A stretch of DNA of 64,000 nucleotides from Cymodocea nodosa (taxonomy: Eukaryota > Streptophyta > Magnoliopsida > Alismatales > Cymodoceaceae): NCBI GenBank assembly GCA_036874045.1, contig CM072335.1, forward strand, positions 14,776,001-14,840,000, written 5' to 3'. Position numbers and translations under genes: made by a program. Each line of letters starts with the position of its first letter. Positions within the stretch are counted from its first letter, which is position 1. The notes beneath the pieces were generated by a model. That model searched no databases and had not been told where the DNA came from. It worked only from the letters and a program-made list of their open reading frames with translations. Positions 21,926 to 63,257 of the stretch are shown piece after piece.

Positions 21926-22240
21926 TGTTAGAACCCGAGTATTTTGATAATGCAAAACCTATGTGAGGTAATATATTATATTTCACAATTAAGTCTATTC
22001 TGCATTAGATCAGAAGGTTGTTAGAACAATTTCCATGCAGATGAACAGAACAAGAAGGTTCCAAATGATAATACTTTCAAGATACAGCAAAATCGGATAG
22101 TTACAGGTTCAAGTATCCGAAGAGTAAAACAGCAACAAGATTATCGGACAGTTAGAAGGATAACTATCCGAATTTTTACAAAGCCTTCAGAGAGTTATTT
22201 AATCATACAGTGAAGGGAATTGAATGATCGGATAGTTAAG

Positions 22241-22575: not shown

Positions 22576-22819
22576 GATTCCATGGATAGTTTCATTCGAC
22601 ATCGTGATGGAGGACATAGCTTACGATCATCGGCTTTGATCATGCCTCCCGGCATTTGCTCCGGACATTGCACAATGATCCTCACACTTTGTCGCATCTC
22701 TTCGATACGGATACAGTAACGATCATAGCGATCTCCTCTGGTACCTACTGGTACGTCAGGATCCGATTGGTCATGAACATCGTAAGGTGCTGCTCTTCGC
22801 GAATCCCAGCATACCCCAG
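22576..22819 (-). pseudogene. nad7: nad7 exon 4 (mitochondrial, in NUMT)
   Basis: 244 bp, the usual size of plant nad7 exon 4. It encodes [18 protein letters not shown] (first codon shared with exon 3) to [10 protein letters not shown], part of the 49-kDa-type subunit of respiratory complex I. The reading frame is intact. Residues such as S in CWDSRR and in QSDPDVP are Leu in the edited protein, so these are unedited genomic C positions. In the nucleus it has no plausible expression: partial gene, group II introns, no flanking exons. Confidence 0.93.
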
Positions 22820-23866
22820 GTTGGGATGGGTAGGCCCACCACTGGACTTGCACTGGGGCCCGGGCCAAGTCAGTGGGGGGACCCTGTCGGGCTCCTTCCC
22901 CCCCAAAACAAACTGTACGTGGGAGTTTCCCTTCATACGGCTCGAATCATTCTCACTCAGATGCCCCGAGAGACATCCTTTCCTTTGGAGAGTCATTCCC
23001 TCTACCCAACAAGACCCCCGGGTTGGTTCACGCGCGCGTAAACGAGCACCGACCGCGCGGGGAACTATGACCAATAGAGTCAGACACAGAGCTTTGTTTA
23101 TTCCGAATCCGATAGATGGAAGAGGGCTTTCTTTCTCTGAGGGCGCGGGACGCTCGCTCCGTCCGCGCCTGCCTTCCGTACCACCACAGACAGGTCGTTC
23201 TTGGGCAGATCCCGCTCCCGGGGGACCCGGCCACCTATTTCATTCGACGTGGAGGGGCCCCTTGACCTCTACCTCCCGCCCGATTCGATCGCTCTCCTCT
23301 CCTTAAATATAGCTTGCGAGCCTAGTTCCTCTCCACCTAATAGCTTGCGAGCTGATCTGCTTTGATCCAGGAGAAAGCCCAGTCAGCCACCTGAAAAAGT
23401 GCGGGTGCTTTACGTTAGCGGACCTACAGCTCGGCCTTCGCTTTTTGAGGCTTCCTCTACCCACATCTCTATGTGCCCGCAGCACTTCCATATGGAGAAA
23501 GATGGGCTTACCATGTTCCATCAATAGCACCGGAACTACGCTGATTTTGGCGGACCGTGCTCCACCCCGGTGAACTCATGCGGTTCCGACGTGCCCAGAG
23601 GCCAGAGGCGAATCCGTTCACGGTCCTACGGACCAACACCATTCGAAGGTGGATGGCCCGCCCCGCATAGTCATGTTTGACTGGGCTTACACACATTCGC
23701 TCACGTCACGCTGTCCCCCCTCAGCTCACCCTAGACCCGGGTACGTCGTCTCCAAGGCTTCACACAAAATCTTCACTGACAACATATGCATGCTTCTGTA
23801 GGGTCAGGCAGAACCTTGCCTGATGGGAACTTCCCCCATATTGCTATCGATGTCTTCATGTCGCAC
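22820..23866 (-). other. nad7 intron 3, complete group II intron
   Basis: Starts GTGCGAC at 23866 and ends in AC at 22820. Domain V is recognisable at 22943-22910: 34 nt, starting GAGCCGTATGAAGGGAAACT and closing by complementarity. It lies 90 nt from the exon, leaving room for domain VI. No maturase frame. The long reading frames on either strand here (for example 22656-23306 plus) are chance frames in a GC-rich intron. Confidence 0.88.
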
Positions 23867-24333
23867 GACCTCTTAACATTACACCACTGAATCCCCAATC
23901 CTTTGCTTGCTGTGCAGTGACAGTACCAATATCGCATAATCGTTGTTTCCAGATACGGTTGCCGGTTGACATCTCTTCTAATTCGTCGATACGAGAAGCA
24001 AATTGTTGTGTGGAGGAATCAATATCTCGACATAAGCCAAGAGGCAGATCTTGTGCCACTCCACCAGGTCGTATGAAACTGGCATGCATCCTGGCTCCAG
24101 GGACTCTTTCATAGAATTCCAACAATTTCTCCCGCTCCTCAGAAGCCCAAAGGAACGGAGTTGATGCTCCCACATCCATAGCATGAGTAGTTGAAGCAAG
24201 TGAATGATTTGAAATTCGAGTTATTTCACGGAATAAGACTCGTATATATTGAGCTCGTAATGGTACCTCGCAATTCAAAAGTCTCTCTACGGCTGAAGAA
24301 TGAGCGTGTTCTTGGGCCATCGTAGAAACATAG
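23867..24333 (-). pseudogene. nad7: nad7 exon 3 (mitochondrial, in NUMT)
   Basis: 467 bp, the usual size of plant nad7 exon 3. Encodes [19 protein letters not shown] through GFSGVMLRG with no stop. Several Ser or Arg codons sit where the edited protein has Leu, Phe or Cys ([30 protein letters not shown]), consistent with unedited C-to-U sites. The exon ends GGTC and exon 4 starts CTGGGG, which together give the Gly-Pro-Gly junction. Confidence 0.94.
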
Positions 24334-24854
24334 ATAGGGTCGACGACGGAACGAACAACGAAACTTTACGACAGCTTTTTCGTACACGTTCACTTGCATC
24401 ACATACACAAGTGCTCTCTGAACCGTGCAATAAGGTCACCCATAACACGGCTCTCCCACTTGAGTGACCTGGGACCCAGGCCATGCCCTTGCCATGATAT
24501 TGGAAAAATGGCAGCCTTTTTTTCCCGCCCCCGCCGGAAAAGGGAGAGGTCTGGAGCCCTTGATCCAAAGGAAGGGGTGTGGAGCAGAACAGTAGCAAAC
24601 GACATTAATGATTGTTCCCAATCCATTCGTCTGTAATTTGATCGGCCCCAGTCCCTTCCCTCTCCCCATTCTCCAGTCTCCCGCACTGCTCGACGTGTGC
24701 GACTCCGTATGAGGACCTCCTTCCCTTCTGCTCTGCCCACTCTCCGTTCACACGGTTATCAAAGCAGAGGAAGGGTGGGCAGCAGGTACCACGAGCCCTC
24801 TGTCCCACACATCGGTACAGAAGCGACGTGTAGTTCACCGGTTCCACTGAATGC
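24334..24854 (-). other. nad7 intron 2, 3' part (group II)
   Basis: Runs from the insertion edge to exon 3. A 34-nt domain V is visible at 24453-24420, starting GAGCCGTGTTATGG and closing CACGGTTC. The 86 nt between it and the exon would hold domain VI. Confidence 0.8.
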
Positions 24855-26127
24855 GGAGTTAACTATCCGGAAGCTTAAAGGATTTTTCGGAGAGTTACAG
24901 GTATAACTATCTGAAAGTTAAGTCATTCAATAAGCCACATGCAGAAATACAGAACGGAAGTTTAAAGGGCTTGTCGGAGAGTTAGATAACTATCCGAGTT
25001 TTCTTTTCGAAGAGTTAGATAACTATTCGAGTTTTTCGGTAAGTTACAGACATAACTTTCCGGAACTTAAGTCATTTTATTACGCACGTGTAAAATGGAG
25101 AAGCTAGCAGTTGAAAGCTTTAAAGGGAAAATTGGAGAGTTAGATAACTATCCGAAATTTTCAAAGAGAGTTTCGATAAGTTACAGTTTAACTATCCGAA
25201 ACTTAAGTTATTGAAATTGCCATGTCCAAAATTCTAGACAGATGCTCAAATAGGTTTTCGGAGAGTTAGAAAGATAACTATCCGAAATTTCAAGAGAGTT
25301 TCGGTGAGTTACAACTATCCGAAACTTAAGTTATTGAATTTCCCACGTGTAGAATTCTAGAGAGTGGCTCATATAAGTTTTCGGAGAGTTAGAAAAATAA
25401 CTATCTGAAATCCTGAAGCATTTCAGTGAGTTATAGGGATAACCTTCCGAAACTTAAGTCAGCCCTTTATGCACGTGCTAAATTAAAGCAATCGGCAAGT
25501 ATATAACTGTTCAGTAAGTTACAATTATAAGTATCCGATTGGATGACAACTCACATTTAAATATTCTGGAATCCTACCTGGCAAAAAAGGTTAAGTGATC
25601 TTTCGGTGAGTTACAAAAATTCTTTAGAGAGTTACATAGCTAACTATCCGAAAGAACAGGAAAATTGGTAAGATATCTTGAAATGATTTTCTAAACGGTC
25701 ACTTGCCGTATTGGGACTTGAGGCTAATCAAGTACAGTAGAATACATCCGTTGGAGAAAAATATGATCGTTGTACATATCAGGTATATATACAAAATACC
25801 TGAAAACTTCTGTGTAGTTGGTTCTTGCTTTGACCTGAAAGCAAGTGTGTAAGTGTTGAAACACTTAGTGAAGCCCAAGTGAATCTTGGGGGTGGACTAG
25901 CCAATTTGGTGAACCACCTAAAAATTTGCTGTGTGTTTCTTGTCTTTGCTGATTTGCATTCTCTTAGTTTAGTTCATTACATTTCTGTTGAATCATTCGA
26001 TTCAACATCAAAAGAATTTTAAAACTACACACGTTCACCATTCACCCCACCTCTAGTGAGTCTATCGATCCTAACAGTTGGTATTAGAGCAAGGTTAATC
26101 CTTCATAAGATTTAACCATCTGGATTT

Positions 26128-30711: not shown

Positions 30712-31130
30712 GAATATGTTCTTTTCAAGATCTTTAAATTTTATCAAGCTCACCATATGGGAGCTTGTTTTTCTGCTAACCTACTCGTGCAGGATACAGT
30801 CTATATCAGTTTTACAGAAAATCAGTTTTGTAGTCCTCACCTTTTTATATAATGACAAAAAAGGGGGAGAAGAATTTGGAAATTCGGTCACTTACAGTAT
30901 TTCAAGCAAGTACTGAAAGAGAATTATTAAAAGGAGAAGAAAAACTTAGCACACTGATAGGGGGAGAAGTAAGCTCATAGTCAGGGGGAGGAATTCCTTC
31001 TCGTCAGTATAGTTTTGTTTAATTCATGTTTTATGTTTCTCTCTGTGACTAAATGTATAGAAATACACTAGGGAGTGAAATACATGTAAATAATTGTAAA
31101 GGTTTTTGTTATTATCAAAAACGGGGAGAT
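30712..31130 (+). other. copia B 3' region with several polypurine tracts
   Basis: Purine tracts of the GGGGGAG type stand near 30849-30866, 30958-30969 and 30982-30992, and the one next to the LTR reads CAAAAACGGGGAGAT, ending at 31130. The last would be the plus-strand primer; repeated tracts here are typical of SIRE-like copia elements. No ORF. Confidence 0.7.
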
Positions 31131-32895
31131 TGTTAGAACCCGAGTATTTTGATAATGCAAAACCTATGTGAGGTAATATATTGTATTTCACAGTTAAGTC
31201 TATTCTATATTAGATCAGAAGGCTATTAGAATAATTTCCATGCAGATGATCAGATCAAGAAGGTTCCAAATGATAATACTTTCAAGATACAGCAAAATCG
31301 GATAGTTACAGGTTCAAGTATCCGAAGAGTAAAACAGCAGCAAGACTATTGGACAGTTAGAAGGATAACTATCTGAATTTTTATAAAGCCTTCAGAGAGT
31401 TATTTAATCAGACAGTGAAGGGGATTGAATGATCGGATAATTAAGGAGTTAACTATCCAGAAGCTTAAAGGATTTTTTAGAGAGTTACATGTATAACTAT
31501 CTGAAAGTTAAGTCATTCAATAAACCACGTGTAGAAATATAGAACGGAAGTTTAAAGGGCTTGTCAGAGAGTTAGATAACTATTCGAGTTTTCTTTTCGG
31601 TGAGTTAGATAACTATTCGAGTTTTCTGGTAAGTTACAGGTATAACTTTTCGGAACTTAAGTCATTTTATTACGCACGTGCAAAATGGAGAAGCCCGCAG
31701 TTGAAAGCTTTAAAGGGGAAATTGGAGAGTTAGATAACTATCCGAAATTTTCAAAGAGAGTTTCGGTAAGTTACAGTTTAACTATCTGAAACTTAAGTTA
31801 TTGAAATTGCCTCATGCAGAATTCCAAACAGATGCTCAAATAGGTTTTCGGAGAGTTAGAAAGATAACTATCCGAAATTTCAAGAGAGTTTCGGTGAGTT
31901 ACAGTTTAACTATCCGAAACTTAAGTCATTGAATTTCCCACGTGCAGAATTCCAGAGAGTGGCTCATATAAGTTTTCGAAGAGTTAGAAAAATAAATATC
32001 CGAAATCCTGAAGCATTTTGGTGAGTTACAGGGATAACCTTCCGAAACTTAAGTCAACCCTTTATGCACGTGCTAAATTAAAGCAATTGGCAAGTATATA
32101 ACTGTTCGGTAAGTTACAGTTATAAGTATCCAATTGGATGACAGCTCACATTTAAATATTCTGGAATCCTACCTGGTAGAAAAGGTTAAGTGATCTTTTG
32201 GTGAGTTACAGAAATTCTTCGGAGAGTTACATAGCTAACTATCCGAAAGAATAGGAAAATCGGTAAGATATCTTGAAACAATTTTTTGAACGATCACTGG
32301 CCGTATTGGGACTTGAGGCTAATCAAGTATAGTAGAATACATCCATTGGAGAAAAATATGATCGTTGTACATATTAGGTATATATACAAAATACAAACAA
32401 TGGAGATACAGAGAGTTATACTCCAAATTCCATTTACACTCAAGTCTGCAAACAGTGAAGCATATTCCAAAGATCTACTGCAGAAAAAGCTTTGTGCGTA
32501 AAACTCTAATTGAAGGATTAAAGTTGTTGGTTCGTAATTTCAACCTGAAAGCTACATACAGTGTTGGTTTGAGTTTCGACCTGAAAACTCTAGAGGTTGG
32601 TTTACTGAAGTTTTTACTTGAAAACTTCTGTGTAGTTGGTTATTGCTTTGACCTGAAAGCAAGTGTGTAAGTGTTGAAACACTTAGTGAAGCCCAAGTGA
32701 ATCTTGGGGGTGGACTAGCCAATTTGGTGAACCACCTAAAAATTTGTTGTGTGTTTCTTATCTTTGCTGATTTGCATTCTCTTAGTTTCAGTTCATTACA
32801 TTTCTGTTGAATCATTCGATTCAACATCAAAAGAATTTTAAAACAACACACGTTCACCATTCACCCCTCCTCCGGTGAGCCTATCGATCCTAACA
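31131..32895 (+). repeat. copia B 3' LTR (1765 bp)
   Basis: TGTTAGAACCC ... CGATCCTAACA, followed by the target duplication GATATG (32896-32901). It has a module array at 31470-32260. A TATATATA sequence near 32379-32386 is the likely TATA region, followed by the about 223-bp segment that the 5' LTR has lost. Confidence 0.92.
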
Positions 32896-32903: not shown

Positions 32904-34530
32904 TGTTGAGTATTTTTGTTTTGATGATGTGTGCTGAATGAAAATAATCATATTTGCTCAATTACTATTGCTTGTGAAAAGAAATTAAAATCATCAATTA
33001 ATACAGAAAAAGCTTACTGATATAAATACTTGTCTGTATTGGATCTGAAGTTAATAACTAGTCGTTTCGTTGCATTAATTTCTCATTTAGCTAAATGTTA
33101 AGTTAACGTGTGTTTTTATTGAAAAGCATGATATGTTTTAATGTTATATCTTCTGTATCATGAACAGTGCATGTTTAGACAACTCGTTAAGTTAGAGTTT
33201 TGTTTGTATAGAAGTCATGTGAGAACTCGTTAAGTTAGAGGCTTAAAGGTTAAAATAGGTCACGTGATAACTCGTTAAGTTAGAGGCTTAAAGGTTAAAA
33301 TAGGTCACATGATAACTCGTTAAGTTAGTGAGTAAAAGAAGAGATGAACTCGTTAAGTTAGTGTTATACACGTGGTGAAATTATAAGTTACGAATGTTGT
33401 ATTGTATCACGTGAGGTGCTCATGTTTAACTCGTTAAGTTAACATAACTAAACGCATTGAGTTGCTATATTGAACACTAAGGCAACGCGTTAGGTTAGTG
33501 TTATAAACTTAAGTTGTTATTTTTGCACGTGGTAAAATTCTTATTATAAAAACATTTGTTTATTATTGGTTCGTTGAGTTATCATAACACAACGGAGATG
33601 GTTCGTTGAGATAGCATAACACCACGAACTTAGTTTGTTGAGTTAGCTACAGTACTTGTCACGTGAAATAGCACATGGTGAACTCGTTAAGTTAGAAACG
33701 TTAAGTTATATATATATACTTGTGTTACTCGTTTAGTTAACATTAAAGTAACGACTTCTTATTACACTAATGAAAAATTTTTGGACGAGAAAGTTTATTT
33801 TCAGGAAATTTTTCAGAGATCCAAGACTGATGATTAAAGAAAATTCGAAATATAAACGTAGGTTAGAACGTGTGTGTTTCGATGAAGGAAAAAGAAAAGA
33901 CGTGGAGAAGTGGAAAACTGGTAGTGGTTAAACGTGAAGGATATGCATGAAATGAAGATATAGCATAAAAGGCATAGAATTCTCGTTGATGAATTTATCC
34001 TTGCACACAAAACGAAAAATCTTTTCAAGGATCAAACCATCCCTACACATCAAAAGAAAAATCTTTTTCAGGGATTAAAAACACCTCTTCGGGAAAAGTC
34101 TCTCAAGTGGAAGAAAGTTCAGTGAAGCATAAAAAAGTAAGATTTTCGTCATTGAAGATTTGAAGTATCAGAAGAAAGCAAATTCGGTGAAGCATGAAAA
34201 GACAAGATATTCGTCACTGAAGAATTGCTGAAGAAGAAAAAGAAGAAGAAGAAAGATCTCAAATAGGGAGAAAAGTTTTAAATTCCACAAATTAGTTTTC
34301 TCTGTTTGTAGTTATGAAATTATTTAGATGATATATGGTATCGAAATATAATTGCATCTAAAATTTCTGAGGAGAATTGAATTGTATATTGTAATTGAAA
34401 CCTTGAATAAAAATGATTTTATGAAAACAATGTCTCGACTTGTTTTTGAGTTTTAAAGTTTCAATTATATTTTAGAAAATATTAAAAATACACAATTCAC
34501 CCTCTTTTGTGTAGCCATACATTCCTACAA
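32904..34530 (+). repeat. copia C 5' LTR (1627 bp)
   Basis: Near-identical by eye to 42382-43950, with an extra copy of the AACTCGTTAAGTTAGAGGC unit near 33225-33300. It holds repeated AACTCGTTAAGTTAG motifs, dyads near 33570-33596, ACTTAAGT near 33508 and CACGTG at 33536-33541. The TATA position reads GCATAAAAGG (33964-33973), one base off the TATAAAAG seen in the 3' LTR. Confidence 0.93.
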
Positions 34531-38047: not shown

Positions 38048-39605
38048 AATGCTTAAACTCCACATAAAAAGATAAATATTATTGATGATGTTGTTCACCT
38101 CATAGATATTATATACTTATTATAAATATCTAAAGTAATATCTAAACTGCTGCTTAAGATACTATGTATTTATTGTAAAATCATAGTAGTATCTTATTGA
38201 TTTTAAGTAGTTTATCAATTTTAATAGTTTTTACGATTTTAAGTGGAAGTGTAAATGAAAAACATTAAATACTTCTGACATTCTGAAATTTTGATTAAAT
38301 GTTTTCTTTGAATCAAGGAAAATACATATGATCATGCATAAATTTGACTTAATTGATTAAACTTGTAGAATAAGTTATATGTAACTCATCTTAAACTGTT
38401 AATCAAAAGTATAAGCTTATTAAAACTTATTCATATTCTCAGTACAATCATAGAAGTAAAAATTGTATGAGATTTGTGTTTTATTGCATCTGTATTAATG
38501 GAATACATATATACTATGCTTAAAATGAAAAATGCTTACAAAGTGAAAATTTTTGAGAGTTTATTGATCAGTTTGATCACGAGCCTTTTGTACTTGGGCA
38601 GATAGGTATGTAAGGATTGTTGTCTTGAAAAAGGATTCTTTAAATCTAGCAACCTAAGGTCCTGATCAGATCTGGGATTGTTGACTGAAAGCTCATTACA
38701 TGGGTACATTAGAAAGCTCTTGTATGATTCAAGCTTTTCAAACTAACTTTTAAAGAAAATTATCAATATTTACTGCTTTGAATAGAAAAATTTGTTTCAT
38801 TAATTACAAATATCTTTCAATCGCATATAGTTTATACCAATATGACTACTGATTTATTGAATCAACATTAGTACTTTTGAAAACGTTTATTTGAGATACA
38901 TTCTTTTATTCTCCTTGAATTAATTGAATTGAGTTAAAAGTTGTGTTTTGATTCATATACAGTAGGAATTGATTCTGGAAATCATTTTTGATGATGTTAG
39001 GATAACGGAAGTCTCTGAAAAGAAAATGTAAAAGTATAGTTATACTTAACATCTATTGTCACTACAAGTATATTGTGTATTTTGATTGAATATATTTGAA
39101 GTATATTTGTAGGGGGAGCATTAACAATGTCAAAAATAGATTAATATAATTTAAAATACAAATCTTAGTTAATTTGAATTAATGTCCTCTTAAAATCTTG
39201 ATGAAATAATTTAAAAAGACAAATAAACTATTTTAGATTCAAAGGACAAAATGTTCAAATAGTTTACAATGTTCTCAAGATTATGTTAAGTTTAACATGT
39301 GTGTTGTTTTCAGAACGTTTCAGTTGGAAGCATCTGAAAATTGGTGTACTAACTAGACGTTATGTTAGATAAGGTAACGTGTAAAACTGACTCTAGACAG
39401 CGTTTTACTCGTTAGGTTGGTTAACTCAACGAGTTATACTTGAATATTTTGGGTACCTTGATTGAATAAACTTTATTCAACATTTATTTAATTTCTAAAC
39501 CCGACTTCTCTTCACGTTGAGTTATATGCTTAAAAACCCTATTTAAACACTTATAACACGGGGACTTGGGTTATTTGTAAACTTTGTCAAGAAAATCTTT
39601 CCCGC
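38048..39605 (+). other. copia C spacer between RNase H and extra ORF
   Basis: AT-rich and without ORF. A purine tract TAGGGGGAGCA lies at 39110-39120, and a short stretch near 39405-39445 repeats the GTTAACTCAACGAGTTA motif of the LTRs. A diverged second copy of 38280-39180 lies at 53060-54060. Confidence 0.7.
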
Positions 39606-42367: not shown

Positions 42368-42380
42368 AAAAAGGGGGAGA
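42368..42380 (+). promoter_or_regulatory. polypurine tract of copia C
   Basis: AAAAAGGGGGAGA immediately before the 3' LTR (42382), the expected place for the plus-strand primer. Confidence 0.85.
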
Positions 42381-42381: not shown

Positions 42382-43950
42382 TGTTGAGTATTTTTGTTTT
42401 GATGATGTGTGCTGAATGAAAATAATCATATTTGCTCAATTACTATTGCTTGTGAAAAGAAATTAAAATCATCAATTAATACAGAAAAAGCTTACTGATA
42501 TAAATACTTATCTGTATTGGATCTGAAGTTGATAACTAGTCGTTTGGTTGCATTAATTTCTCATTTTGCTAAACGTTAAGTTAACGTGTGCTTTTATTGA
42601 AAAGCATGATATGTTTTAATGTTATATCTTCTGTATCATGAACAGTGCACATTTAGACAACTCGTTAAGTTAGAGTTTTGTTTGTATAGAGGTCACGTGA
42701 GAACTCGTTAAGTTAGAGGCTTAAAGGTTAAAATAGGTCACGTGATAACTCGTTAAGTTAGTGAGTAAAAGAAGAGACGAACTCATTAAGTTAGTGTTAT
42801 ACACGTGGTGAAATTATAAGTTACGAATGTTGTATTGTATCATGTGAGGTGCTCATGTTTAACTCGTTAAGTTAACATAACTAAACGCGTTGAGTTGCTA
42901 TATTGAACACTAAGGCAACGCGTTAGGTTAGCGTTATAAACTTAAGTTGTTATTTTTGCCCGTGGTAAAATTCTTATTATAAAAACATTTGTTTATTACT
43001 GGTTCATTGAGTTATCATAACACAACGAAGATGGTTCGTTGAGATAGCATAACACCACAGACTTAGTTTGTTGAGTTAGCTACAGTACTTGTCACATGAA
43101 ATAGCACATGGTGAACTCGTTAAGTTATATATATATACTTGTGTTACTCGTTTAGTTAACATTAAAGTAACGACTTCTTATTACACTAATGAAAAATTTT
43201 TGGACGAGAAAGTTTATTTTCAGGAAATTTTTCAGAGATCCAAGACTGATGATTAAAGAAAATTTGAAATATAAACATGGGTTAGAACGTGTGTGTTTCA
43301 ATGAAGGAAAAAGAAAAGACGTGGAGAAGTGGAAAACTAGTAGTGGTTAAACGTGAAGGATATGCATGAAATGAAGATACAGTATAAAAGGCATAGAATT
43401 CTCGTTGATCAATTTATCCTTGCACACAAAACAAAAAATCATTTCAAGGATCAAACGATCCCTACACATCAAAAGAAAAATCCTTTTTAGGGATCAAAAA
43501 CACCTTTTCGGGAAAAATCTATCAAGTGGAAGAAAGTTCAGTGAAGCATAAAAAAGGTAAGATTTTCATCACTGAAGATTTGAAGTATCAGAAGAAAGCA
43601 AATTCGGTGAAGCATGAAAAGACAAGATATTCGTCACTGAAGAATTGCTGAAGAAGAAAAAGAAGAAGAAGAAAGATCTCAAACAGGGAGAAAAGTTTTA
43701 AATTCCGTAAATTAGTTTTCTCTGTTTGTAGTTATGAAATTGTTTAGACGATACATGGTATCGAAATATAATTGCATCTAAAATTTCTGAGGAGAATTGA
43801 ATTGTATATTGTAATTGAAACCTTGAATAAAAATGATTTTATGAAAACAATGTCTCGACTTGTTTTTGAGTTTTAAAGTTTCAATTATATTTCAGAAAAT
43901 ATTAAAAATACACAATTCACCCCCCTCTTGTGTAGCCTTGCGATCCTACA
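42382..43950 (+). repeat. copia C 3' LTR (1569 bp)
   Basis: TGTTGAGTATT ... GATCCTACA, followed by target duplication ATGAT. The TATA box TATAAAAG is intact at 43383-43390. Motif array 42655-43150. Confidence 0.93.
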
Positions 43951-46352
43951 ATGATGTTGCAATTTTGTGGTTTACTCCATATTTCTTCACTAAGGCTTCA
44001 AAACTTCTATTACAGAAATGAGTTCCTCTATCACTGATAATAGCTTTAGGTATTCCAAATCTGGCAAATATATTGGTTCTTATGAATTGTATTACCACTT
44101 TGTTGTCATTAATTTTTGTAGGAATAACTTCTATCCATTTAGATACATAATCCACCCCCAACAATATGTAATTAAATTGATTAGACATAGGAAATGGACC
44201 CATAAAATCTATTCCCCACACATCAAAAATTTCAACCTCAACAATAGGATTAAGAGGCATCATATTCCTCTTTGATTTTCTTCCTATTTGTTGACATCTT
44301 AAACAACTTAAGCAATATTTATGAGCATCTTTGAATAGTGTTGGCCAATAAAATCCACATTGCAGAATTTTTGCAGTAGTTTTCCTTGAACCAAAATGCC
44401 CTCCACAAGTTTGGTCATGACAGAAAGACAATATGCTTGGATATTCAATTTCTAGAACACACCTCCTTAAAACCAGATCAGGACATTTCTTAAATAAGTA
44501 TGGGTCTTCCCAATAGTAATATTTTACTCTTGAGAAAAACAATTTCTTATCCTGTCTATTCCAATCCTTAGGTGTTAAACCAGTAACTAAGTAATTAACT
44601 ATGTCTACATACCAAGGTATTGTGTTGATGGTCATTAATTGTTCATCAGGAAAATTATCTTTAATTTCAATATCTGATTTTTCTATTTGTAATCTTGATA
44701 AATGATCTGCTACTACATTCTCACAACCTTTTTTATCTTTAATTTCTAAATCAAATTCTTGTAATAATAATATCCATCGGATCAATCTAGGCTTAGTCTC
44801 TTTTTTTGCTATTAGATGTTTTAAAGTTGCATGATCTGTGTATACTATTACTTTAGCTCTAATAAGATATGATCTAAACTTTTCTAAGGCAAACACAACA
44901 GCTAATAGTTCTTTTTCAGTAGTTGTGTAATTAACTTGAGCATCATTTAAGGTTTTACTTGTATAATGAATCACTCTAGGAGATTTTTCTATCTTCTGTC
45001 CCAACACTGCTCCTACAGCAAAATTAGATGCATCGCACATTAATTCAAATGGATGGCTCCAATCAGGTGCTTGAATTATAGGAGTTGAAGTTAAGCTAGT
45101 TTTAAGTCTGAAAGATGCTTCCTTGCAATTTTTATCAAAGTTAAATGGAACATCTTTTAATAGATTAGTTAAAGGTCTAGCTATTTTGCTAAGGTCTTTA
45201 ATAAATTTTCTATAAAAACCAGCATGTCCTAGAAATGATCTAATATCTTTTACTGATTTAGGTTCTAGTAGATTAGAAATTACTTCTATTTTAGCTTTAT
45301 CTACTTCCAACCCTTTCTTAGAAACAACATGCCCTAAGACTATTCTTTGTTTAACCATGAAGTAACATTTTTCCCAATTTAAAACCAGATTTTTTTCCAC
45401 ACATCATTTTAATATTTGGTCTAAATCTTTTAAACAAACTTCATATGAGTTGCCATATACAGTAAAATCATCCATAAATATTTCTAAAAAATCTTCAGTC
45501 ATTCCAGTAAATATGCCTTGCATACACCTTTGAAAGGTAGTTGGTGCATTGCATAATCCGAATGGCATTCTCTTAAAAGCATAAGTTCCATTAGGACAGG
45601 TGAAAGTTGTTTTCTCTTGATCCTCTAATGCTACTGGAATTTGATTATAACCTGAATACCACTTTAGGAAAATGATATTTCCTAGTCACAACATTCAACT
45701 TTCTATAGTCTATACATACTCTCCAGCCTGATTGAATTTTAGTAGGTATCAAGTCTTGACTTTCATTCCTAATAACTGTTAATTCCGATTTCTTGGGAAC
45801 TACATGGATTGGGATAACCCACGAGCTATCAGAAATCGGATAAATTATGTCATTATCTAACCATTTCACTATTTCCTTCCTAACTACTTCTTTAAGGTTT
45901 GGATTTAATCTCCTCTCAGAAATTCTAATAGGTTTAGCATTCTCTTCTAAATATATGTGGTGACAGCATAAAATTGAACTTAACCCTTTTATATTAGTCA
46001 TAGTCCATCCTATTGCTTCTTTATAACTTTTTACTACATCTTTTAATTTAGCTATTTGATCCTCTTTTAAATCTAAAGCAATAATGATTGGACATGTTCG
46101 TTTCTCTTCCAGAAATATATAGGTTAATTCAGGAGGTAAATGTTTTAATTCTAAATGTTGCCCATCAGAAGCTAGAGCTCCTAATTGAACATCATCGTTT
46201 TCTAAATTAATTTCTTCCAAATCTCCTTCTATATTTATGCTTTCACTTTCCTCTAAAGTTTCAGAATTGATTTGCCTATTTAATTCTTCTTGAATCACAT
46301 CGTCTAACATATCTCCTTCATCCTCTAAAATGTCTATGGTATGTAAGGACAT
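43951..46352 (-). pseudogene. Athila-1 reverse transcriptase, RNase H and integrase (N-terminal part)
   Basis: Minus strand from about 46352: reverse transcriptase with VCIDYRKLN (near 45720) and the Athila-type active site FMDDFTVYG near 45455-45482. Then [20 protein letters not shown], RNase H ([29 protein letters not shown]) and integrase zinc finger (H...CLSCLRCQ). The core has GIDFMGPF and IISDRGTHF, the first two catalytic Asp. It breaks at 43951 after HKIATS and continues at 21925. It is the longest open stretch in the window (45400-43946). Frame breaks lie at 45645 and 45400. Confidence 0.92.
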
Positions 46353-46391
46353 TTCTAACTCCTCAAACCTTTCTGGTTTAAAAATGTTTAA

Positions 46392-47899: not shown

Positions 47900-47976
47900 A
47901 TTCTCAATTATAGAAGAAAACACACAACACTCTGGCTATTAAAATGAAACAGCTCTAATAGTTACTTATATGAATT

Positions 47977-48108
47977 CCCCGGCAACGGCGCCATAAAACT
48001 TGGTTGGTTCCTTAGCAACGGTGCCATAAAACTTGTTTGGTTACCTAGCACGACACCAGAAAACTTATTTGGATCTCTAGCAACGCACTAGAAAAACTTG
48101 GATTTGTT
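47977..48108 (-). repeat. Athila primer-binding site and tandem degenerate copies
   Basis: The minus strand reads TGGCGCCGTTGCCGGGGA at 47994-47977, the Asp-tRNA-type primer site of Athila/Tat elements. Next to it, moving into the LTR side, are three further units of about 33 bp with the same layout (AGCAACGGTGCCATAAAACT, AGCACGACACCAGAAAACTT, AGCAACGCACTAGAAAAACT on the plus strand), each more degraded. Confidence 0.8.
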
Positions 48109-50214
48109 AACTTCTGTTTTACTTAGTTAATTTATCTTTATGCCTATTCCTTTTTTAGAAGTAAACAAACAACCTTTCACACAAATTAAATATTAATTCC
48201 AATTTATATTTTAACTGCAAGTGCATAGTGTCTATTGTATTAGTGTGCAAGTATAGGTCGAACCCACAAGGAATTGCTTAAGAATTGAGAACTGTTCCAT
48301 TTTTAACAATCAAATTTATATATTCAATAAGCCCTCCGTTAAGTTACAGTTAACTCAACGGACAAAGTTTGTTAAGTTATGGCTAACTCAACGGACTAAC
48401 CTCGTGCACTTAAGTTAACTCCACGAGCCTGCCTTTCCTATTTAATACTGCTATTTACAGAGGAATTCGGCCAACCATTGGGCGGTTCCACAAATTGTAA
48501 ATAACATCAATTAAGCTCTTTAATGTTAGTAAACACTGGATTTATCATTAGGCAATACTAACATTCAGATAATTCAAACAATAACCATTAAAATCTTTAA
48601 GTCTTTTGAACGAACCAATTTAAGTAAATTGTAAAACTAAAACAAATATAAAACAATCACAACACTGACAAAGATAACATTAATCACGATACAAAATAAA
48701 CAATACAACATGCAAATACAAAATATAAACACAAATAAGTTGTTTTTGGTATTTTTGTTTTGATATGAGCATGAAAATGAGCGAAAGGTGAAATGTAAAG
48801 TAATCTCAATCGATAGTAAATACTTCCGTCACTACATGCGACGCGATTACACCACTTACAATTCTGTCTCCTCTCCCTATAGAATTGCAAAATGATCTCC
48901 TCTTCAGCATATAGGCATCAACCCGAAGCTAAGGCTAGAAGCTTTACGATCTCTTGAGATATGAGTCGGTGCTTGGTGAAAATGGCTTCCCTTCCCGTGA
49001 CGGGATCACTCATCACAGTGGTTGTTAGGCACTGGGTTTGGCTCGGAATCGACATCAGGAAAGTATCCTCATAGACCTTTGATGGTTGGTGATTATAGTG
49101 GTGGTGATGATGGTTGGTGTGGTACTTCAGAGAATTGCCGATGGTGATCCTCCTCTACACACACTGGCCACACCCATCGATCACACACTTAATTCTTTTT
49201 CTTCTTTTCTTTTATATTTCTTTAGTGGTAATTGCTTCTGCTTGAATGGTCGGTTGGATTTCCTTCATTCATATCAATGACGATGATTTCTTCTCCCTAC
49301 GCGATACGTACGATCGTGGTTTTTCCTTCCAACTGTCCTGTTTCTGCAACCGCTATAGTGGTATATTAGAAAATAAATAGTCCATGGAGTTACAAATAAC
49401 TCAATGGACTTGCTTCGTTGATTTAACTATAAAACACGTGCATAAATTTAACTATCCGATGCTTAGGTGCATTTCGGATACTTACAAACTTAACTATCCG
49501 ATGCTCAAATGCATTTCGGATAGTTACAGATAACTCACCGATATATAACTTAAGTAAATCTACCAAATCACGACACGTGTCAGCAGCAGTTTAATAATAA
49601 AAGAAACATTTCGGAGAGTTACAGGTCTAACTATCCGATGCCTAGATGCATTTCGGATAGTTAGAGATAACTCATCGAAAATCCACTTAAGTCACTTTCT
49701 CAAAACATGACACGTGTACACAACTATTTTATAAATAAAAGGACATTTCGGAGAGTTACACATATAACTATCTGATGCCCAGCTGCAATTTTGGATAGTT
49801 ATAGATAACTCACTGAAAGTTCACTTAAGTCCTGTATTATGGTTTCGACATGTGTAATTCAAGAAATAATAAAATATTCTTTTAAAACATAACTGTTTGG
49901 CAATTTAAACATAACTATCCGATACATGTTCGATATGTTAAACATAACTGTCTGAAATATGTTCAGTATGTTAAATATAACTGTTCGAAATAATAGAAAA
50001 TTTAGATACTTAAGAATTTCACAGCCTGCAACTTAACGACAGTTCAGAAATGTACTAAATTAACATTAATTCCCCAAAATTAAGCAGATTCTTTAATTAA
50101 AGCATATAACAATGCAATTATAACATAATGGCTTAATTCTCATATGATAAGCTAAATATTATGCAATTAACCATCATTTATCCATTAATATTATGCACTT
50201 TTTCATTCTAAACA
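48109..50214 (-). repeat. Athila-1 5' LTR (L2)
   Basis: Minus-strand LTR starting TGTTTAG at 50214 and aligned by eye with 1-2057. The inner end is not sharply defined because the primer-site repeats adjoin it. It holds dyad arrays at 48335-48400 and 49378-50040, including CACGTG sites near 49435, 49574 and 49712. Confidence 0.88.
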
Positions 50215-51170
50215 ACCATTGTGAAGAGTGATCGCATCATAGGAAGGGAAGCCATTTTCACTAAGCACCGACTCATATCTCAAGAGATCGTAAAGCTTCT
50301 AGCCTTGGTTTTAGGTTGATGTTAGTATGCTGAAAAGGAGATCATCTTACAATTCCTGATTCACAATTCTATAGGGAGAGGAGGCAAGATTATAAGTGGT
50401 TAAGTTTTTAGTAGTGTAATCACGTCGCATGTAGTGACGGAAGTTTTTACTATCAGTAGAGATTTTTACATTTCACCTTTCACTCATCTTCAAGAACATA
50501 TCAAAACAAAAATACCAAAAACAACAAATTATCTGTGTTTACATTTAGTATTAAAGTATTGTATTGTTTGTTTTATATTATGATTAACGTTATCATTGTC
50601 AATATTCTAAATGTTTTATGTTTGTTTAATTCAAAAAATAGAAAGTAGTTTTATTGTTTACTGAAACTAATTCGTTCCAAATACTTAAAGATTTTAATGG
50701 TTACTATTTGAAATATTTGAATGTTAGTGTTGCTTAATGACAAATCTAATATTAACTAACATTAAAGAGCTTCATTGATGTTATTTACATTCTATGGAAC
50801 CACCCAATGGTTGGCTGAATTCCTTAGTAAATAGTAATATTTAACTGAAAAGGTAGGCTCATGGAGTTAACTTAAGTCCACGAGGTTAGTCCATTGAGTT
50901 AACCATAACTCCACAAACTAAATCCGTTGAGTTAACTGTAACTCAACGGAGTGCTTAACTGAACACATATAAACTCCAATATAAAAATCAGAATAGTACA
51001 CAATTCTTACTCAATCTTTGTGGGATCGACCTGTACTTGCGCACAAATACAATATACATTGTGCACCTGCAGTTAAAATACAAATTGACCTTAATATTTA
51101 ATTTGTGTGAAAGGTTGTTTGTTTACTTCTAAAAGAATTTATTAATATAAGCATAAAAACAAATCAAAGA
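50215..51170 (+). repeat. partial Athila LTR in inverted orientation (L3)
   Basis: Plus-strand copy of the inner part of the Athila LTR: it reads as the reverse complement of about 49023 down to 48140, including CTAGCCTTGG, TCGACCTGTACTTG and GAAAGGTTGTTTGTTTACTT. It starts exactly where Athila-1's 5' LTR ends. It contains a perfect dyad at 50923-50950. Confidence 0.85.
50923..50950. repeat. perfect 12-bp inverted repeat, 4-nt spacer
   Basis: Arm TCCGTTGAGTTA, spacer ACTG, arm TAACTCAACGGA, 12 of 12 pairs. The corresponding site in Athila-1's LTR (48335-48362) has one mismatch. Confidence 0.9.
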
Positions 51171-53051
51171 AGTTTTCACAAACCGAACACTCTTCAATTG
51201 ATGTTGTCTTCTGAGCCCAAATTTTAGTTAAAGATCTAAGGATCTTTCTTACCAAGTCTTTTTCCTCGAATTTCTTGCTTAAAGATTTTAATGAATTTAC
51301 AATCTCAAGAAAACGAGAAAACATATCAGAGATACATTCATTTTTGTGCATTTTAAAAAGCTCATATTTATGCACTAACATATTAATCCTAGATTCCTTG
51401 ACCTGGTTAGTACCTTCGTTGGCAACTTCTAATGCATGCCATATCTCATATGTAGTTTGATATGCAAAAACTTTGTTAAATTGATCATGTGATAAAAAGC
51501 ATAGAACAAGATGTTTAAACCTTTAGTATTTAGTGTCATTCACTCCTTTTCATCAAAAGTCCAAGTATCATATGGAGTCATAACTAACACTATAGGATTG
51601 CTAATTACATGCCATAATTTAAAATCAATTAACTGAAAGAATACTTTTAGCCTATATTTCCAGTAATCGTAATTGCTACCTTCGAACATAGGAGGATGAT
51701 TAGTAATCTGTCCTTGAATCATAACTAAGATTTTAGTATTATCCATTTTAAATAGATGATCCTAAATAAATGATAAGAAAGACTGATTCCTAAATAGAGA
51801 AATGAAAGCTCTTAACTATGCTCTAATACTAGTTGTAGGATCATTGTATCACAAGAGGGGAGGTGAATTGTGTCTTTAGTAATTAAATTACCAACGGATA
51901 AAACAAGAGCACAAAACACTCGTAAATGAAATTCTATTCTTTATAAACTTTAAAGAAATAATTTACAATTTCTTTTCAACTCAATTCCCTTCTTATCGGT
52001 TTTGATATGATAAAATCTAATATACAATTCAAATGGAAAATGAAGTCCTTATTCTAATCTAATTTTGAATTTTATAAATCCTAATCTTTATGCACGTAGC
52101 TCCTTTTCCTCTTTTTGCTCAACTTCTATATCTCTTTTTCTCTAATTGTCAAATTTTCAGACTTCTTGCATTTGCAGCTCATTTTCTGAAATTGCTTGGA
52201 ATTCCAAACTTCTTTTGATGTTGGAGAATTTTTCTAGATTGGGATTGAATATGCAGTTGAATATTCAGACTTGATTTTTCATATTGTGATTAGGGATTGG
52301 GATGATCGTAATGCAGCTCGTACTCTCTATTTGTAGTCGAAACTATTATTTCACGTTCAACATGTTCCTCCACTTAATCCATAATCCACATACTAATTTC
52401 AAATTCAAATTATCCATAATTTCCACTATCTTTTTGAATTTCCACTATCTCCACTATCATTTTGAATTTCCAAAAATTCATATCGTAGATCCACCGAAAC
52501 TTTATCTTCTTGGAGATTTGTAGAATAGCTTCTAAGTCACTACTTTAGTCGAACACTTATCCTTTAAGTCTTGTAAAAACTTGAATACTTATCTGTAACT
52601 TTTTGAGTTTTTGCATCTACAAAACACGTGACTAAACAAAGAAAACTTATCTATTCGTTAGTCATTTTATAAAACTCGAACAGCTATATATCTATGCGTA
52701 TAAAAACTTGAATAGTTATCTAACTCTTCGATTTTCATTACCAAATACACATAGAAAACACGTGAAAACTTAAAACATTAAAAACACACATGTAGATAAC
52801 TTAACTATACGAGTTTTTAACATAACTCTTCGACTAAATCGAAATGTTAACTATTTGAAAGTTTAACTATCTGAAAACTTTAACTATCCAAAAATCCTTA
52901 ACTATTCGAAAGTTAACTATCTGAAATTTTAAATGAAACTTTTCGATAACTTGTTAATATTTAATTGCGTGACTATTATACTTAGAAAATATTATTTAGA
53001 CTTATTTATAAACTTTAATAAAGCATTCATCATCAAAACAAAATTCCTAAT
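51171..53051 (-). mobile_element. copia C-related fragment E: gag start and 5' LTR
   Basis: Minus strand: LTR 53051-51834 (inner end TGTAGGATCATTG on the plus strand, outer end a decayed form of the copia C terminus, CATCATCAAAACAAAA). A degraded primer site follows, then a gag start at 51746 (GQITNHPPMFEGSNYDYWKY). Gag sequence (YELFKMHKNECISDMFSRFL) continues to about 51175, where it meets the Athila LTR fragment. Stops interrupt gag. The LTR has its own motif stretch at 52600-52960 with AACACGTGAAAAC. Confidence 0.8.
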
Positions 53052-53059
53052 AGAAATCA

Positions 53060-53948
53060 GTATGCTTAACAGAAACTCAGAATTTGTTTGAAATCTTGAA
53101 AAATTAAATTATGGATTTTTAGATTAAATGAAATGCATATGATCAAGGATAAATTTAACTTGATTGATTAAATTTGTGGAATGATTTATGTGTAAATCAT
53201 ATTGAACTACTAGTAAAAAGTATGAGCCTATTGAGATTGATTCATATTTTCAATAGATTGTAGAAGCAATATTATATGAGATGTGTGTTTTATTGAATCG
53301 GTATTAATGAAATACACAAATACTATGTTGAAAAAAATTAAGGTTTATAAAGTGAAGATCTTTGAGAGTTTGTTGATTTGTTTGATCACAAGACTTTTGT
53401 AATTGAACATATAAGTATGTAAGGATTGTTGACCTGATAAAGGACTCTTTAAATCTGTCAACCTAAGGTCTTGACAAAACCTAGGATTGCTGACTAAAAG
53501 CTCATTATATGGGTACATTAGAAAGCTCTTGTATGATTCAAGCTTTTCAAATTAACTTTTAAAGTAAAAATATGTATATACTGTTCTGAAAAGATGAAAG
53601 TATTTCATTAAAAATATAGATATCTTTGAATTAAGTATGGTTTTTGTCTTTATAACTATTGATGTTTGAATCTAAATTAGACTTTTGAAGTTGTTTATTT
53701 GAGATATACTTCATTATTCCTCTTGTTTTAATCATATTAAGTTTAAAGTTGTGTTTTGATTCATATGCAATTGAAATTTATTCTAGAAGTTATATTGGAT
53801 AAATTCAAGATAACAAATGTTTTTGAGAAAAAATTAACAATATAGTATAGTTATTATCTATCTTATACAAGTATATTTTGTATGCTGTTGATTATTTCTG
53901 ATGTATATTTGAGAGGAGAGGAAGAATAATGTTAAAATAGATTGATGA

Positions 53949-54968: not shown

Positions 54969-56788
54969 TGTTAGAACCCGAGTATTTTGATAATGCAAAA
55001 CCTATGTGAGGAAACATATTGTATTTCACAGTTAAGTCAGAGTAGCATTAGATCAGAAGGTAGATAGAACAAATTCCAAACAAACGAACAGATGGAGGAA
55101 GTTCTAGAAGAAACTACCTTAAAGTTATAGGAAAATCAAACAGTTACAGGTCCAAGTATCCGAAGAGTAAAATAGCTGCAAGACTATCGGACAGTTAGAA
55201 GGATAACTATCCAAATTTTCCAAAGCTTTCGGAGAGTTAAATAATTGGACAGTTAAGTTGGTTGAATGATCAGAGAGTTAAGGAGTTAACTATCGGAAAG
55301 AAAAAGGAAAATCGGAAAGTTAGAAAGGCTAAGTATCCGAAACTTAAGTCATTCAATAAATCACGTGTAGAAATACAGAACGGAAGCTTAAAGGACTTGT
55401 CAGAGAGTTAGATAACTATCCGAGTTTTCTTTTTGGAGAGTTAGATAACTATTCGAGTTTTTCGGTAAGTTACAAGCATAACTTTCTAGAACTTAAGTCA
55501 TTTTATTACACACGTGCAAAATGGAGAAGCCGGTAGTTGAAAGCTTAAAAGGGAAAATCAGAGAGTTAGATAACTATCCGAAATTTCAAAGAGAGTTTCG
55601 GTAAGTTATAGTTTAACTATCCGAAACTTAAGTCATTGAATTTCCCACAAGCAGAATTCCAGAAAGAAGCTCAAATAAGTTTTCGAAGAGTTAGAAAGAT
55701 AACTATCCGAAATCCTGAAGCGTTTCGGTGAGTTACAAGGATAACCATCCGAAACTTAAGTCATTGAATTTCCCACGTGCAGAATTCTAGAAAGAAGCTC
55801 AAATAAGTTTTCAAAAAGTTAGAAAGATAACTATCCAAAATCCTGAAGCGTTTCGGTGAGTTACAGGGATAACCATTCGAAACTTAAGTCAGCCTTTTAT
55901 GTACGTGCTGAATTGAAGCAATCGGAAAGTTAACAGAGGGTTACTATAGCCAACTATCTGACAATTATATAACTGTCCGGTGAGTTTCTGTTATAAGTAT
56001 CTGACTGAATGACAGCTCGCAGTAAATATTCTGGAATCCTACCTAGTAGAAAGATTTAAGTGATCTTTCGGTGAGTTATAGATTTTCTTCAGAGAGTTAC
56101 ACAGCTAACTATCCGAAAGGTTAGGAAAATCGGTAAGACATCTTGAAATAACTTTCTGAACGGTAACTTACCGTATTTGACTGGTGTCTAATCAAGTACA
56201 ACAAAATACATCCGTTGATAGAGAAATATGATTGTTATACCTTGGTATAAATATGAGGAGTTTAAGAAAGGAAAAAATAGAGATAACAGATATACCACAT
56301 ACAGTGAGCTACACTCCAATTCCAATTACACTCAAGTATGCAAACAGTGAAGAATATTCTAAAGACCTACTACAGAAATAGCTCTGTGCGCCAAAACTCT
56401 GATTGAAAGATTCAACCTATTGGTTTGTGGCTTCGACCTGAAAGCTACATTCAGTGTTGGTTTGAGTTTTGACCTGAAAACTCTAGAGGTTGGTTTACTA
56501 AAGTTTATACTTGAAAACTTCTATGTAGTTGATTCTTGCTTTGACTTGAAAGCAAGTGTGTAAGTGTTGAAACACTTAGTGAAGCCCAAGTGAATCTTGG
56601 GGGTGGACTAGCCAAGTTGGTGAACCACCTAAAAATTTGCTGTGTGTTTCTTTTCTCTCTGATTTGCATTCGTTTAATTTCATCTCATTACATTTCTGTT
56701 GAATCATTAGATTCAACATCGAAAGAATTTTAAAAACTACACACTTTCACCATTCACCCCCCCTCTAGTGAGCCTATTGATCTTAACA
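54969..56788 (+). repeat. copia F 5' LTR (1820 bp)
   Basis: TGTTAGAACCC ... GATCTTAACA. It has a module array from 55395 to 56120, with CACGTG at several points and ACTTAAGT in most units. The likely promoter TATAAATA is at 56246-56253, followed by the region that copia B's 5' LTR lacks. Confidence 0.92.
56246..56253 (+). promoter_or_regulatory. LTR TATA box of copia F
   Basis: TATAAATA in a GGTATAAATATGAGG context, about 540 bp before the LTR end, a reasonable place for the U3/R boundary. The corresponding place in copia B reads TATATATA. Confidence 0.6.
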
Positions 56789-61495: not shown

Positions 61496-63257
61496 TGTTA
61501 GGATCGATAGGCTCACCAGAGGGGGGGTGAATGGTGAACATGTGTAGTTTTAAAATTCTTTTGATGTTGAATCGAATGATTCAACAGAAATGTAATGAGC
61601 TGAAACTAAGAGAATGCAAATCAGCAAAGATAAGAAACACAACAAATTTTTAGGTGGTTCACCAAATTGGCTAGTCCACCCCCAAGATTCACTTGCGCTT
61701 CACTAAGTGTTTCAACACTTACACACTTGCTTTCAAGTCAAAGCAAGAACCAACTACACAGAAGTTTTCAAGTAAAAACTTTAGTAAACCAACCTCTAGA
61801 GTTTTCAGGTCGAAACTCAAACCAACACTATATGTAGCTTTCAGGTTGAAACTACGAACCGACAACTTTAATCCTTCAATCAGAGTTTTCGTGCACAGAG
61901 CTTTTTTTGCAGTAGATATTTGGAATATGCTTCACTGTTTGCAGACTTGAATGTAAATGGAATTTGGAGTATAGCTCATCTATCTCCGTTGTCCGTATTT
62001 TGTATATATACCTGATATGTACAACAATCATATTTTCCTCCAACGGATGTATTCTACTGTACTTGATTAGCCTCAAGTCCCAATACGGTAGGTGACCGTT
62101 CAAAAATCGTTTCAAGATATCTTATACCGATTTTCCTGTTCTTTCGGATAGTTAACTATGCAACTCTCCGAAGGGTAACTGTAACTCACTGAAAGATCAC
62201 TTAACCTTTACTGCCAAGTAGGATTCCAGAATATTTAAATGTAAGCTGTCATCCAATCGGATACTTATAACTGTAACTCACCGAGTAGTTATGTCTTTCC
62301 GATTGCTTTAATTTAGCACGTGCATAAAGGGCTGACTTAAGTTTCGGAAGGTTATCCCTGTAACTCACCGAAATGCTTCAGGATTTCGGATAGTTATTTT
62401 TCTAACTCTTCGAAAACTTATATGAGCCACTCTCTGGAATTCTGCATGTGGGAAATTCAATGACTTAAGTTTCGAATAGTTAAACTGTAACTCACCGAAA
62501 CTCTCTTGAAATTTCGGATAGTTATCTTTCTAACTCTTCGAAAACCTATTTGAGCATCTGTCTGGAATTATGCACGTGGCAATTTCAATAACTTAAGTTT
62601 CAAATAGTTAAACTGTAACCTACCGAAACTCTCTTTGAAAATTTCGGATAGTTATCTAACTCTCCGATTTTCTCTTTTAAGCTTTCAACTGCCGGCTTCT
62701 CCTTTTTGCACGTGCGTAATAAAATGACTTAAGTTCCGGAAAGTTATGCCTGTAACTTACCGAAAAACTCGAATAGTTATCTAACTCTCCGAAAAGAAAA
62801 CTCGGATAGTTATCTAACTCTCCGACAAGCCCTTTAAACTTCTGTTCTGTATTTCTGCACGTGATTTATTGAATGACTTTACTTTCAGATAGTTATACCT
62901 GTAACTCTCCGAAAAATCCTTTAAGCTTCCAAATAGTTAACTCCTTAACTATCCGATCATTCAATCCCTTTCATTGTCTGATTAAATAACTCTCCGAAGG
63001 CTTTGTAAAAATTCGGATAGTTATCCTTCTAACTGTCCGATAGTCTTGCTGCTGTTTTACTCTTCGAATACTTGAACCTGTAACTGTCTGATTTTGCTGT
63101 ATCTTGAAAGTATTATCATTTGGAATCTTCTTAATTTGTTCATCTGCATGGAAATTGTTCTAACAGCCTTCTGATCTAATGCAGAACAAACTTAACTGTG
63201 AAATACAATATATTACCTCACATAGGTTTTGCATTATCAAATACTCGGGTTCTAACA
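61496..63257 (-). mobile_element. solo LTR of the copia B/F family, reverse orientation
   Basis: 1762 bp from TGTTAGGATCG to GGGTTCTAACA on the plus strand, i.e. an LTR reading on the minus strand, with no internal region beside it. Target duplication GTTTT at 61491-61495 and 63258-63262. Removing it restores the GCTTGTTTT/CTGCTAAC sequence seen intact in copia B near 30770. It holds a clear module array (62140-63060). Confidence 0.95.

Follow-up and report, generated by a model that had tools for sequence, protein, structure and literature searches.

A motif array common to the LTRs of Sirevirus-type copia and Athila-like Ty3 retrotransposons in Cymodocea nodosa, and its apparent exchange between the two superfamilies

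Long terminal repeats (LTRs) of Sirevirus-type Ty1/copia and of Athila-like Ty3 retrotransposons in Cymodocea nodosa carry the same kind of motif array, and their comparison indicates that LTR segments have passed from one superfamily to the other. The reading which we hold to be probable is that Sireviruses and Athila-like Ty3 elements have a U3 module in common, that segments were exchanged between Athila and the Sirevirus family copia B, that a chimeric form then spread, and that the module would act as an enhancer read by the host. The window, that is, the whole stretch of 64,000 nucleotides analyzed here, is judged by its content to be a nest of plant LTR retrotransposons, the features of which are collected in Table 1.

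Table 1. Positions of LTRs, motifs and related features (window coordinates unless a locus is named)
Feature	Position	Strand	Remarks
LTR (TG...CA), Athila-like Ty3 element	about 48001-50213	-	From sequence; ends from fetched LTR pairs
Motif array of Athila-like LTR (dyads, ACTTAAGT, CACGTG; period 136-138)	49435-49988	-	From sequence
Dyad TCGGATAGTTA CAGA TAACTCACCGA	49516-49541	+	Exact read
ACTTAAGT box, Athila-like LTR	49548-49555	.	
CACGTG box, Athila-like LTR	49574-49579	.	18 nt past ACTTAAGT; within GACACGTGT (49572-49580)
Dyad TCGGAGAGTTA CAGGTC TAACTATCCGA	49611-49638	+	31 nt past CACGTG
TATA-like box, downstream side of array, Athila-like LTR	49210-49216	-	Position 996 in sense from 50211; picked by position among six TATA-like matches in this LTR
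Primer-binding-site-like TGGCGCCGTTGC (GGCGCCGTTGC site)	47982-47993	-	7 nt past LTR end
RNaseH-integrase ORF, Ty3 element	43946-45403	-	PF17917, PF17919, PF17921, PF00665
Second Athila-like LTR copy, truncated by window start	1-2056	-	88% over 2069 aligned columns
Copia A (Sirevirus-type) LTR	31131-32895	+	Array about 31298-32246; ACTTAAGT-12-CACGTG units, period 128/136
Copia A 5' LTR, second part	24855-26077	+	First part about 21928-22241
Copia A LTR	54969-56788	+	PBS CAATTGGTATCAGAGC at 56787
Copia A LTR	61496-63257	-	
Copia B (Sirevirus-type) 5' LTR	32904-34530	+	TCGTTAAGTTA array; ACTTAAGT-11-CACGTG
Copia B 3' LTR	42382-43951	+	AGGGGGAG-AT-TG directly before
Copia C LTR	51834-53130 (upper end approximate)	-	TCGAANAGTTA dyads and CACGTG
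Shared linker sequence	38187-39113; 53131-53946; L012:1917-2914; L035:4188-5137; L053:4304-5007; L054:4554-5026		

A dyad array of the Sirevirus RM type is present in the LTR of a Ty3 element. This superfamily, already named in the initial annotation, is assigned on the order of the Pfam domains, RNaseH and then integrase within a single ORF, together with the GGCGCCGTTGC primer-site-like sequence; the reverse transcriptase part at 45645-46391 gave no Pfam match. The lineage name Athila is that annotation's label, kept here as a provisional one which the GGCGCCGTTGC site at 47982 would fit. The two Athila-like LTR copies possess 12 and 13 half-sites, located at 224-753 and 256-751 bar one each near 1800, and a TATA-like match, among others, at 996 and 993. 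Both dyads read exactly as first quoted, with ACTTAAGT and then CACGTG close by as claimed. The span initially described as an Athila LTR, 49378-50040, does contain the array, but this is only part of a longer LTR lying on the minus strand; similarly, the left LTR repeats this order, as had been noted, although that copy extends well beyond the 1215-1860 originally given.

At the 3' end of the Athila-like LTR, 33-bp tandem repeats (47975-48100) hold several degenerate primer-site-like copies. A partial inverted copy of the LTR abuts it head to head (48153-49026 versus 50211-51134, 80%). These inverted arms might be mistaken for a terminal-inverted-repeat transposon occupying 48153-51134, a candidate which was ruled out in favor of an LTR with an adjoining partial inverted LTR because of the Ty3 ORF, the primer-site-like sequence, and the contiguity of LTR and internal sequence in locus L021. 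A second type of dyad, TCCGTTRAGTTA..TAACTCAACGGA, occurs in the Athila-like LTRs at 48335-48365 and 1215-1250, the former near an ACTTAAGT.

Based upon their PPT and PBS, copia A and copia B are classed as Sireviruses. The 5' LTR junction CA-ATTGG-TATCAGAGC is exact at 5727 (minus strand) and 56787 (plus strand), and is found with one mismatch at 34528 and two at 26075. The copia B PPT, AGGGGGAG, is exact at 42372-42379 where it is followed by AT-TG, and has further copies at 42078 and 39111; that of copia A has copies at 30862, 30959 and 30983, the terminal one (31121-31128) showing one change. Copia C is assigned through an adjoining copia gag match at 51191-51715 together with a weak form of the junction bearing three mismatches (51820-51835, minus strand), which chance alone could yield; at up to three mismatches, 0.71 matches are expected by chance. 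A Sirevirus RM is taken to comprise eight or more copies of a dyad built around CGG-CCG, situated in the LTR's upper half ahead of the TATA box and rich in CpG. Two copia A LTRs have 14 and 16 TCGNNNAGTTA half-sites, 11 and 13 of which lie in the upper half, with a TATA-like match (among others) past the array and a CpG observed/expected ratio of up to 1.33. The copia B repeat TCGTTAAGTTA, being devoid of CGG, is a variant of this RM. A fourth family, copia D (L043 and L046), shows a PPT-AT-TG junction resembling that of Sireviruses; a 45-residue reverse transcriptase end found upstream of L046 is 57.8% identical to that of copia B. Copia D carries ACTTAAGT-18-CACGTG units (L043:330-1150, L046:260-1010) in the same sense as those of Athila, and may be closer than copia A to the source of the Athila array.

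Read on the plus strand of the window, the Athila array consists of a dyad, ACTTAAGT, 18 nt, CACGTG, 30 or 31 nt and a dyad, repeated with a period of 136-138. In copia A the order is identical, the spacings are 12 and 31/32 nt, and the units recur with a period of 128/136, its sense strand corresponding in array order to the antisense strand of Athila. The dyads are of the TCGGNNAGTTA/TAACTNNCCGA type or the variant TCGTTAAGTTA, and CACGTG is presumably the G-box core. Counted by strand, the pattern TCGGANAGTTA-n2-12-TAACTNNCCGA is matched 30 times in the window, at 18 places, and is absent from all of 100 dinucleotide shuffles. If one mismatch is tolerated, the window has 196 half-sites, versus 3-12 in ten first-order Markov sequences. 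Genome-wide (374.6 Mb, 28 contigs) TCGGATAGTTA occurs 23518+23947 times against 91+134 for its reversed pattern, and ACTTAAGT-n4-30-CACGTG 12712+12856 times (25568) against 37+24 (61). Among the first 100 places listed for the latter, a non-random sample all from contig 1, the spacer is 18 nt in 65, 11 nt in 22, 12 nt in 11 and 8 nt in two.

In 19 ten-kb stretches hand-picked at scattered coordinates, five contain at least three half-sites; the total is 48 versus zero for the reversed motif, while ACTTAAGT was found 22 times (four reversed) and CACGTG 39 times (25 reversed). CACGTG by itself is unspecific, since 24 of these 39 are more than 300 bases from any half-site. A search for the dyad in viral contigs gave no matches; one in prokaryote genomes gave 10 stretches, which are taken as chance.

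The resemblance was originally ascribed either to exchange between families or to convergence, the check suggested being whether flanking sequence or only the motifs are shared. Were it convergence only, the families would have built the same syntax independently, rewarded by one host factor and with no movement of sequence. The copia A-Athila pair, to which the original observation referred, lends this explanation support: the two have in common the motifs, the order in which these stand and a spacing of 30-32 nt beyond CACGTG, and the spacers of the units are no more alike than shuffles. In tests on all 17 units found by regular expression (9 Athila, 6 copia A and 2 copia B; none in six of the 17 stretches, namely L011B, L017, L025A, L025A2, L035x and L035y) the scores of spacers S2 and S3 of the six copia A units against Athila were reached by 191 and 222 of 300 shuffles. 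Four copia A units aligned with Athila units scored 69, 68, 67 and 62 against null values of 55, 57, 63 and 49, scores reached by 48, 67, 175 and 46 of 500 shuffles; their non-motif identity was reached by 242, 294, 369 and 411 of 500. With the orientation reversed, a copia A unit scored 47 against a null of 48.

Comparison of whole arrays speaks against convergence even here, as copia A and Athila show a weak similarity in the same orientation (z of 2.5-5.1) compared with 0.9-2.5 in the opposite one, a result which may partly reflect decayed motif copies missed by the mask. A common origin of these two arrays is therefore possible, the comparisons of units and of whole arrays pointing different ways. 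The same-orientation z against Athila also exceeded shuffles for copia D (3.2-6.4) and for those copia B forms which have an Athila-like unit (2.1-8.7), but neither for the copia B array of the window (-1.7 to 1.7) nor for copia C (-0.6 to 1.4). Values for the opposite orientation were mostly weaker, the exceptions being L017 versus copia B (3.0-4.4) and L021 and AthR versus the copia D locus L043 (2.8 and 2.5).

Convergence fails for copia B and Athila, and as a complete account we consider it unlikely. We kept the motifs fixed, shuffled the spacers 500 times per segment and compared alignment scores. Copia B segments in the Athila LTRs L012, L025 and L035 scored 158, 137 and 126, where the null means were 45, 39 and 40, and none of the 500 shuffles reached the observed score in any of the three. 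When identity in the aligned columns outside motifs was taken instead, the observed values were reached by 72, 19 and 217 of 500; this measure separates less well, its null being high because gapped alignment of shuffles retains few columns. These segments and that in L044 are the more diverged copia B forms (72-82%). The clearest case is L041, an Athila LTR with approximately 320 bp from a copia B LTR, corresponding to positions 145-295 (94.7%) and 528-681 (95.5%), with Athila flanks on both sides. Its right junction lies within an 11-nt half-site common to both families, and its left junction in no motif. In L039 and L040, copia B 524-631 is bounded on one side by a point a few bases beyond an Athila ACTTAAGT, and on the other the join falls exactly at CACGTG; as these two LTRs have different upstream flanks and are 94.8% identical, this chimeric form was copied. 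Three of the four aligned junctions are in or beside motifs, which occupy a large share of the array. In every case examined the copia B pieces are inserted sense to sense.

Conversely, some copia B LTRs hold an Athila-like unit, though its transfer may have run either way. Athila-like units in the copia B LTRs L018, L031 and L011 scored 77, 62 and 83 against nulls of 23, 26 and 26, again exceeding all 500 shuffles each, with non-motif identity reached by 51, 30 and 23 of 500. For the units of L018 and L031, none of 300 shuffles equaled the similarity of either spacer, S2 or S3, to nine Athila units. Of the six copia B LTRs in which the corresponding region was seen, four have the unit (L011, L018, L031 and L042, the last being a 3' LTR directly joined to copia B internal sequence), and the window's two are without it. 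L038 proved to be another Athila and not the 5' LTR partner of the copia B LTR L031. The unit L018:1385-1565 was matched at all 40 scored places, itself included (40 scored of 2417 candidates), at 95-100%, the unit alone being counted whatever its surroundings. Its spacers also resemble those of Athila, in opposite orientation, and since the orientation is opposite a DNA-level step is needed for its transfer to copia B. The unit could also have come from copia D (L043, L046).

With all six segments scoring above every one of 500 shuffles, and with segments up to 95% identical embedded in Athila LTRs, the alignments demonstrate, as far as sequence comparison can, that Athila-like Ty3 elements and the Sirevirus family copia B exchanged segments on several occasions. 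Flanking sequence is thus shared by copia B and Athila, and the similarity persists when more LTR copies are compared.

Sharing between the superfamilies extends past the LTR array, as about 0.5-1 kb of internal linker in copia B has 68-78% identity with stretches that immediately precede Athila-like LTRs. Upstream of the chimeric LTR L039 lies a relative that has a gag of Ty3 type (PF03732) and a 212-residue ORF (L054:1140-2420 and 3114-3749); a similar 218-residue ORF is present at L053:2863-3516, and neither of these two ORFs has a Pfam match. The pol pieces of the window found no counterpart in the 5 kb fetched, and the element upstream of L039 is possibly non-autonomous.

In the Athila, copia A and copia B 3' LTRs examined the arrays precede a TATA-like match, although with several such matches per LTR the position of the TATA does not fix the promoter. 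The CpG observed/expected ratio per 200 bases is highest in the arrays, reaching 2.05. The array is composed of U3 repeats of dyads, ACTTAAGT and CACGTG that precede the likely promoter of the LTR. From its position and syntax we suggest that it would function as a promoter-proximal enhancer recognized by some DNA-binding factor of the host, and we infer an activator shared by the families.

Alternatively, the dyads might act as hairpins of RNA or single-stranded DNA, for example as sources of small RNAs, rather than as protein-binding sites, a case that has been made for the palindromes of maize Sireviruses. Their symmetry would allow this, and PMC10760457 reports small RNAs from hairpin regions of maize Copia LTRs. 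The arms share the same central dinucleotide in only 8 of 113 dyads, where 28.4 would be expected were they independent (the copies are related and the counts therefore not independent). Arms that usually differ at the center disfavor hairpins as the selected feature, and the few fixed spacings between ACTTAAGT and CACGTG would suit a protein complex better, which makes this alternative rather improbable. VANC proteins of VANDAL transposons exemplify an anti-silencing logic. By analogy, an anti-silencing protein, either encoded by an element or co-opted, could read the array and be used by several families. CpG-rich arrays in many copies and several families agree with such a role; the 218- and 212-residue ORFs of L053 and L054 bear no Pfam domain to lend it weight, and we regard it as very unlikely.

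The chimeric LTR represented by L041 is widespread. A 561-nt probe crossing from Athila into copia B and back (L041:440-1000) was matched at all 40 scored places, itself included, out of 6031 first-look candidates; 38 matches were nearly full length and two began at position 50, the other 39 showed 89-96% identity, and they were distributed over many contigs. Nine same-strand pairs are spaced 11.0-14.5 kb apart. In the four pairs fetched (L055-L062) both LTRs hold both copia B pieces (91-96%). LTR-LTR identity within the pairs is 95.54, 95.30, 94.22 and 94.25%, and transitions account for 87/99, 91/106, 107/128 and 117/134 of the differences. All four have the TGGCGC primer-site-like sequence after the 5' LTR, the three whose sequence before the 3' LTR was read (all but L062) have a purine tract there, and blastn identified Athila internal sequence after the 5' LTR in three (not L061). 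Since both LTRs of four elements carry the copia B segment, one chimeric LTR form was spread by transposition. That the mixed LTRs are isolated products of nested insertion, gene conversion between neighbors or misassembly, with no wider meaning, is an idea to which a nest of elements lends itself, conversion between arrays being plausible there, yet it is scarcely credible in general and already refuted for the L041 form, which is present in both LTRs of the four pairs and whose recurrence at 40 of 40 scored places on many contigs misassembly cannot explain.

Between the LTRs of the four pairs, changes were observed at 44/719 motif positions, 105/2242 array spacer positions and 318/6057 other positions; no host-level conservation of the motifs was seen in these inserted copies. 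Since motifs and the remaining positions change at much the same pace, motif retention reflects which copies transposed and not protection in place.

For our preferred reading, a U3 module common to both superfamilies and exchanged between them, we would envisage that the motifs provide short homology for recombination and so move working arrays between families, and that an element gaining a working array stays transcribed, whereby the syntax would be kept while the spacers drift. Either template switching by reverse transcriptase or DNA-level conversion would be sufficient to place copia B segments in Athila. More tentatively, the superfamilies may draw upon a common pool of exchangeable enhancer cassettes in which activator-binding motifs double as recombination sites, binding and exchange reinforce one another, and array types evolve apart from the coding region; we put this forward as a conjecture somewhat more apt to be wrong than right.

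As regards known systems, the available text of Bousios et al. 2010 (PMC2829016) describes CpG-rich arrays of CGG-CCG dyads (RM) in the upper half of Sirevirus LTRs, upstream of the TATA box, and treats the RM, among the Ty1/copia elements it covers, as peculiar to Sireviruses. Copia A and, with its variant repeat, copia B, both placed among Sireviruses on PPT and PBS, resemble that description; the difference is that here a Ty3 LTR has the arrays, with ACTTAAGT and CACGTG at fixed spacings. As Sirevirus LTR arrays are already established, the copia side is of a known kind, whereas that paper does not cover the Athila side. Palindrome arrays in maize Copia LTRs, likewise comparable to ours, appear in PMC10760457 (citing Bousios et al. 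2016), in which, to the extent of its available text, Ty3 elements are generally without an obvious peak of such structures and exchange of LTR segments is not described. Recombination reshuffles LTR segments, and the recombinants proliferate, among grass centromeric retrotransposons (PMC4079200) and crapaud LTR subfamilies (PMC10787394), but the partners presented in those sources are variants or subfamilies of one family and not members of different superfamilies. Template switching during reverse transcription gave rise to composite elements among the complex insertions of Triticeae (PMC1950507); as presented there, whole elements were fused (Angela-like, Opie), whereas here a few hundred U3 bases were replaced. 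Searches of the open-licence literature, a body outside which most subscription papers fall, yielded no report of array exchange between Ty1/copia and Ty3 among the titles and abstract openings listed, nor in passages of related papers. The new part is the sharing of the array between Sirevirus and Ty3 LTRs, the Sirevirus arrays themselves being known.

The usual view is that the control regions of LTRs are inherited as part of the element. If U3 arrays do pass between Ty1/copia and Ty3 elements and the recombinants amplify, the regulation of an element can shift in one step, LTR-based classification of families mixes histories, and the common array indicates a host activator for which a direct search can be made. 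The data suggest that unrelated elements are able to swap switch-like parts.

ARAGORN detected no tRNA genes in the window. A GC-rich stretch at 22242-24854 (0.517 in 22001-24000) splits a copia A LTR and contains, at 22820-22945, a group II intron match which is the only Rfam match; these features suggest that the stretch is organellar DNA.
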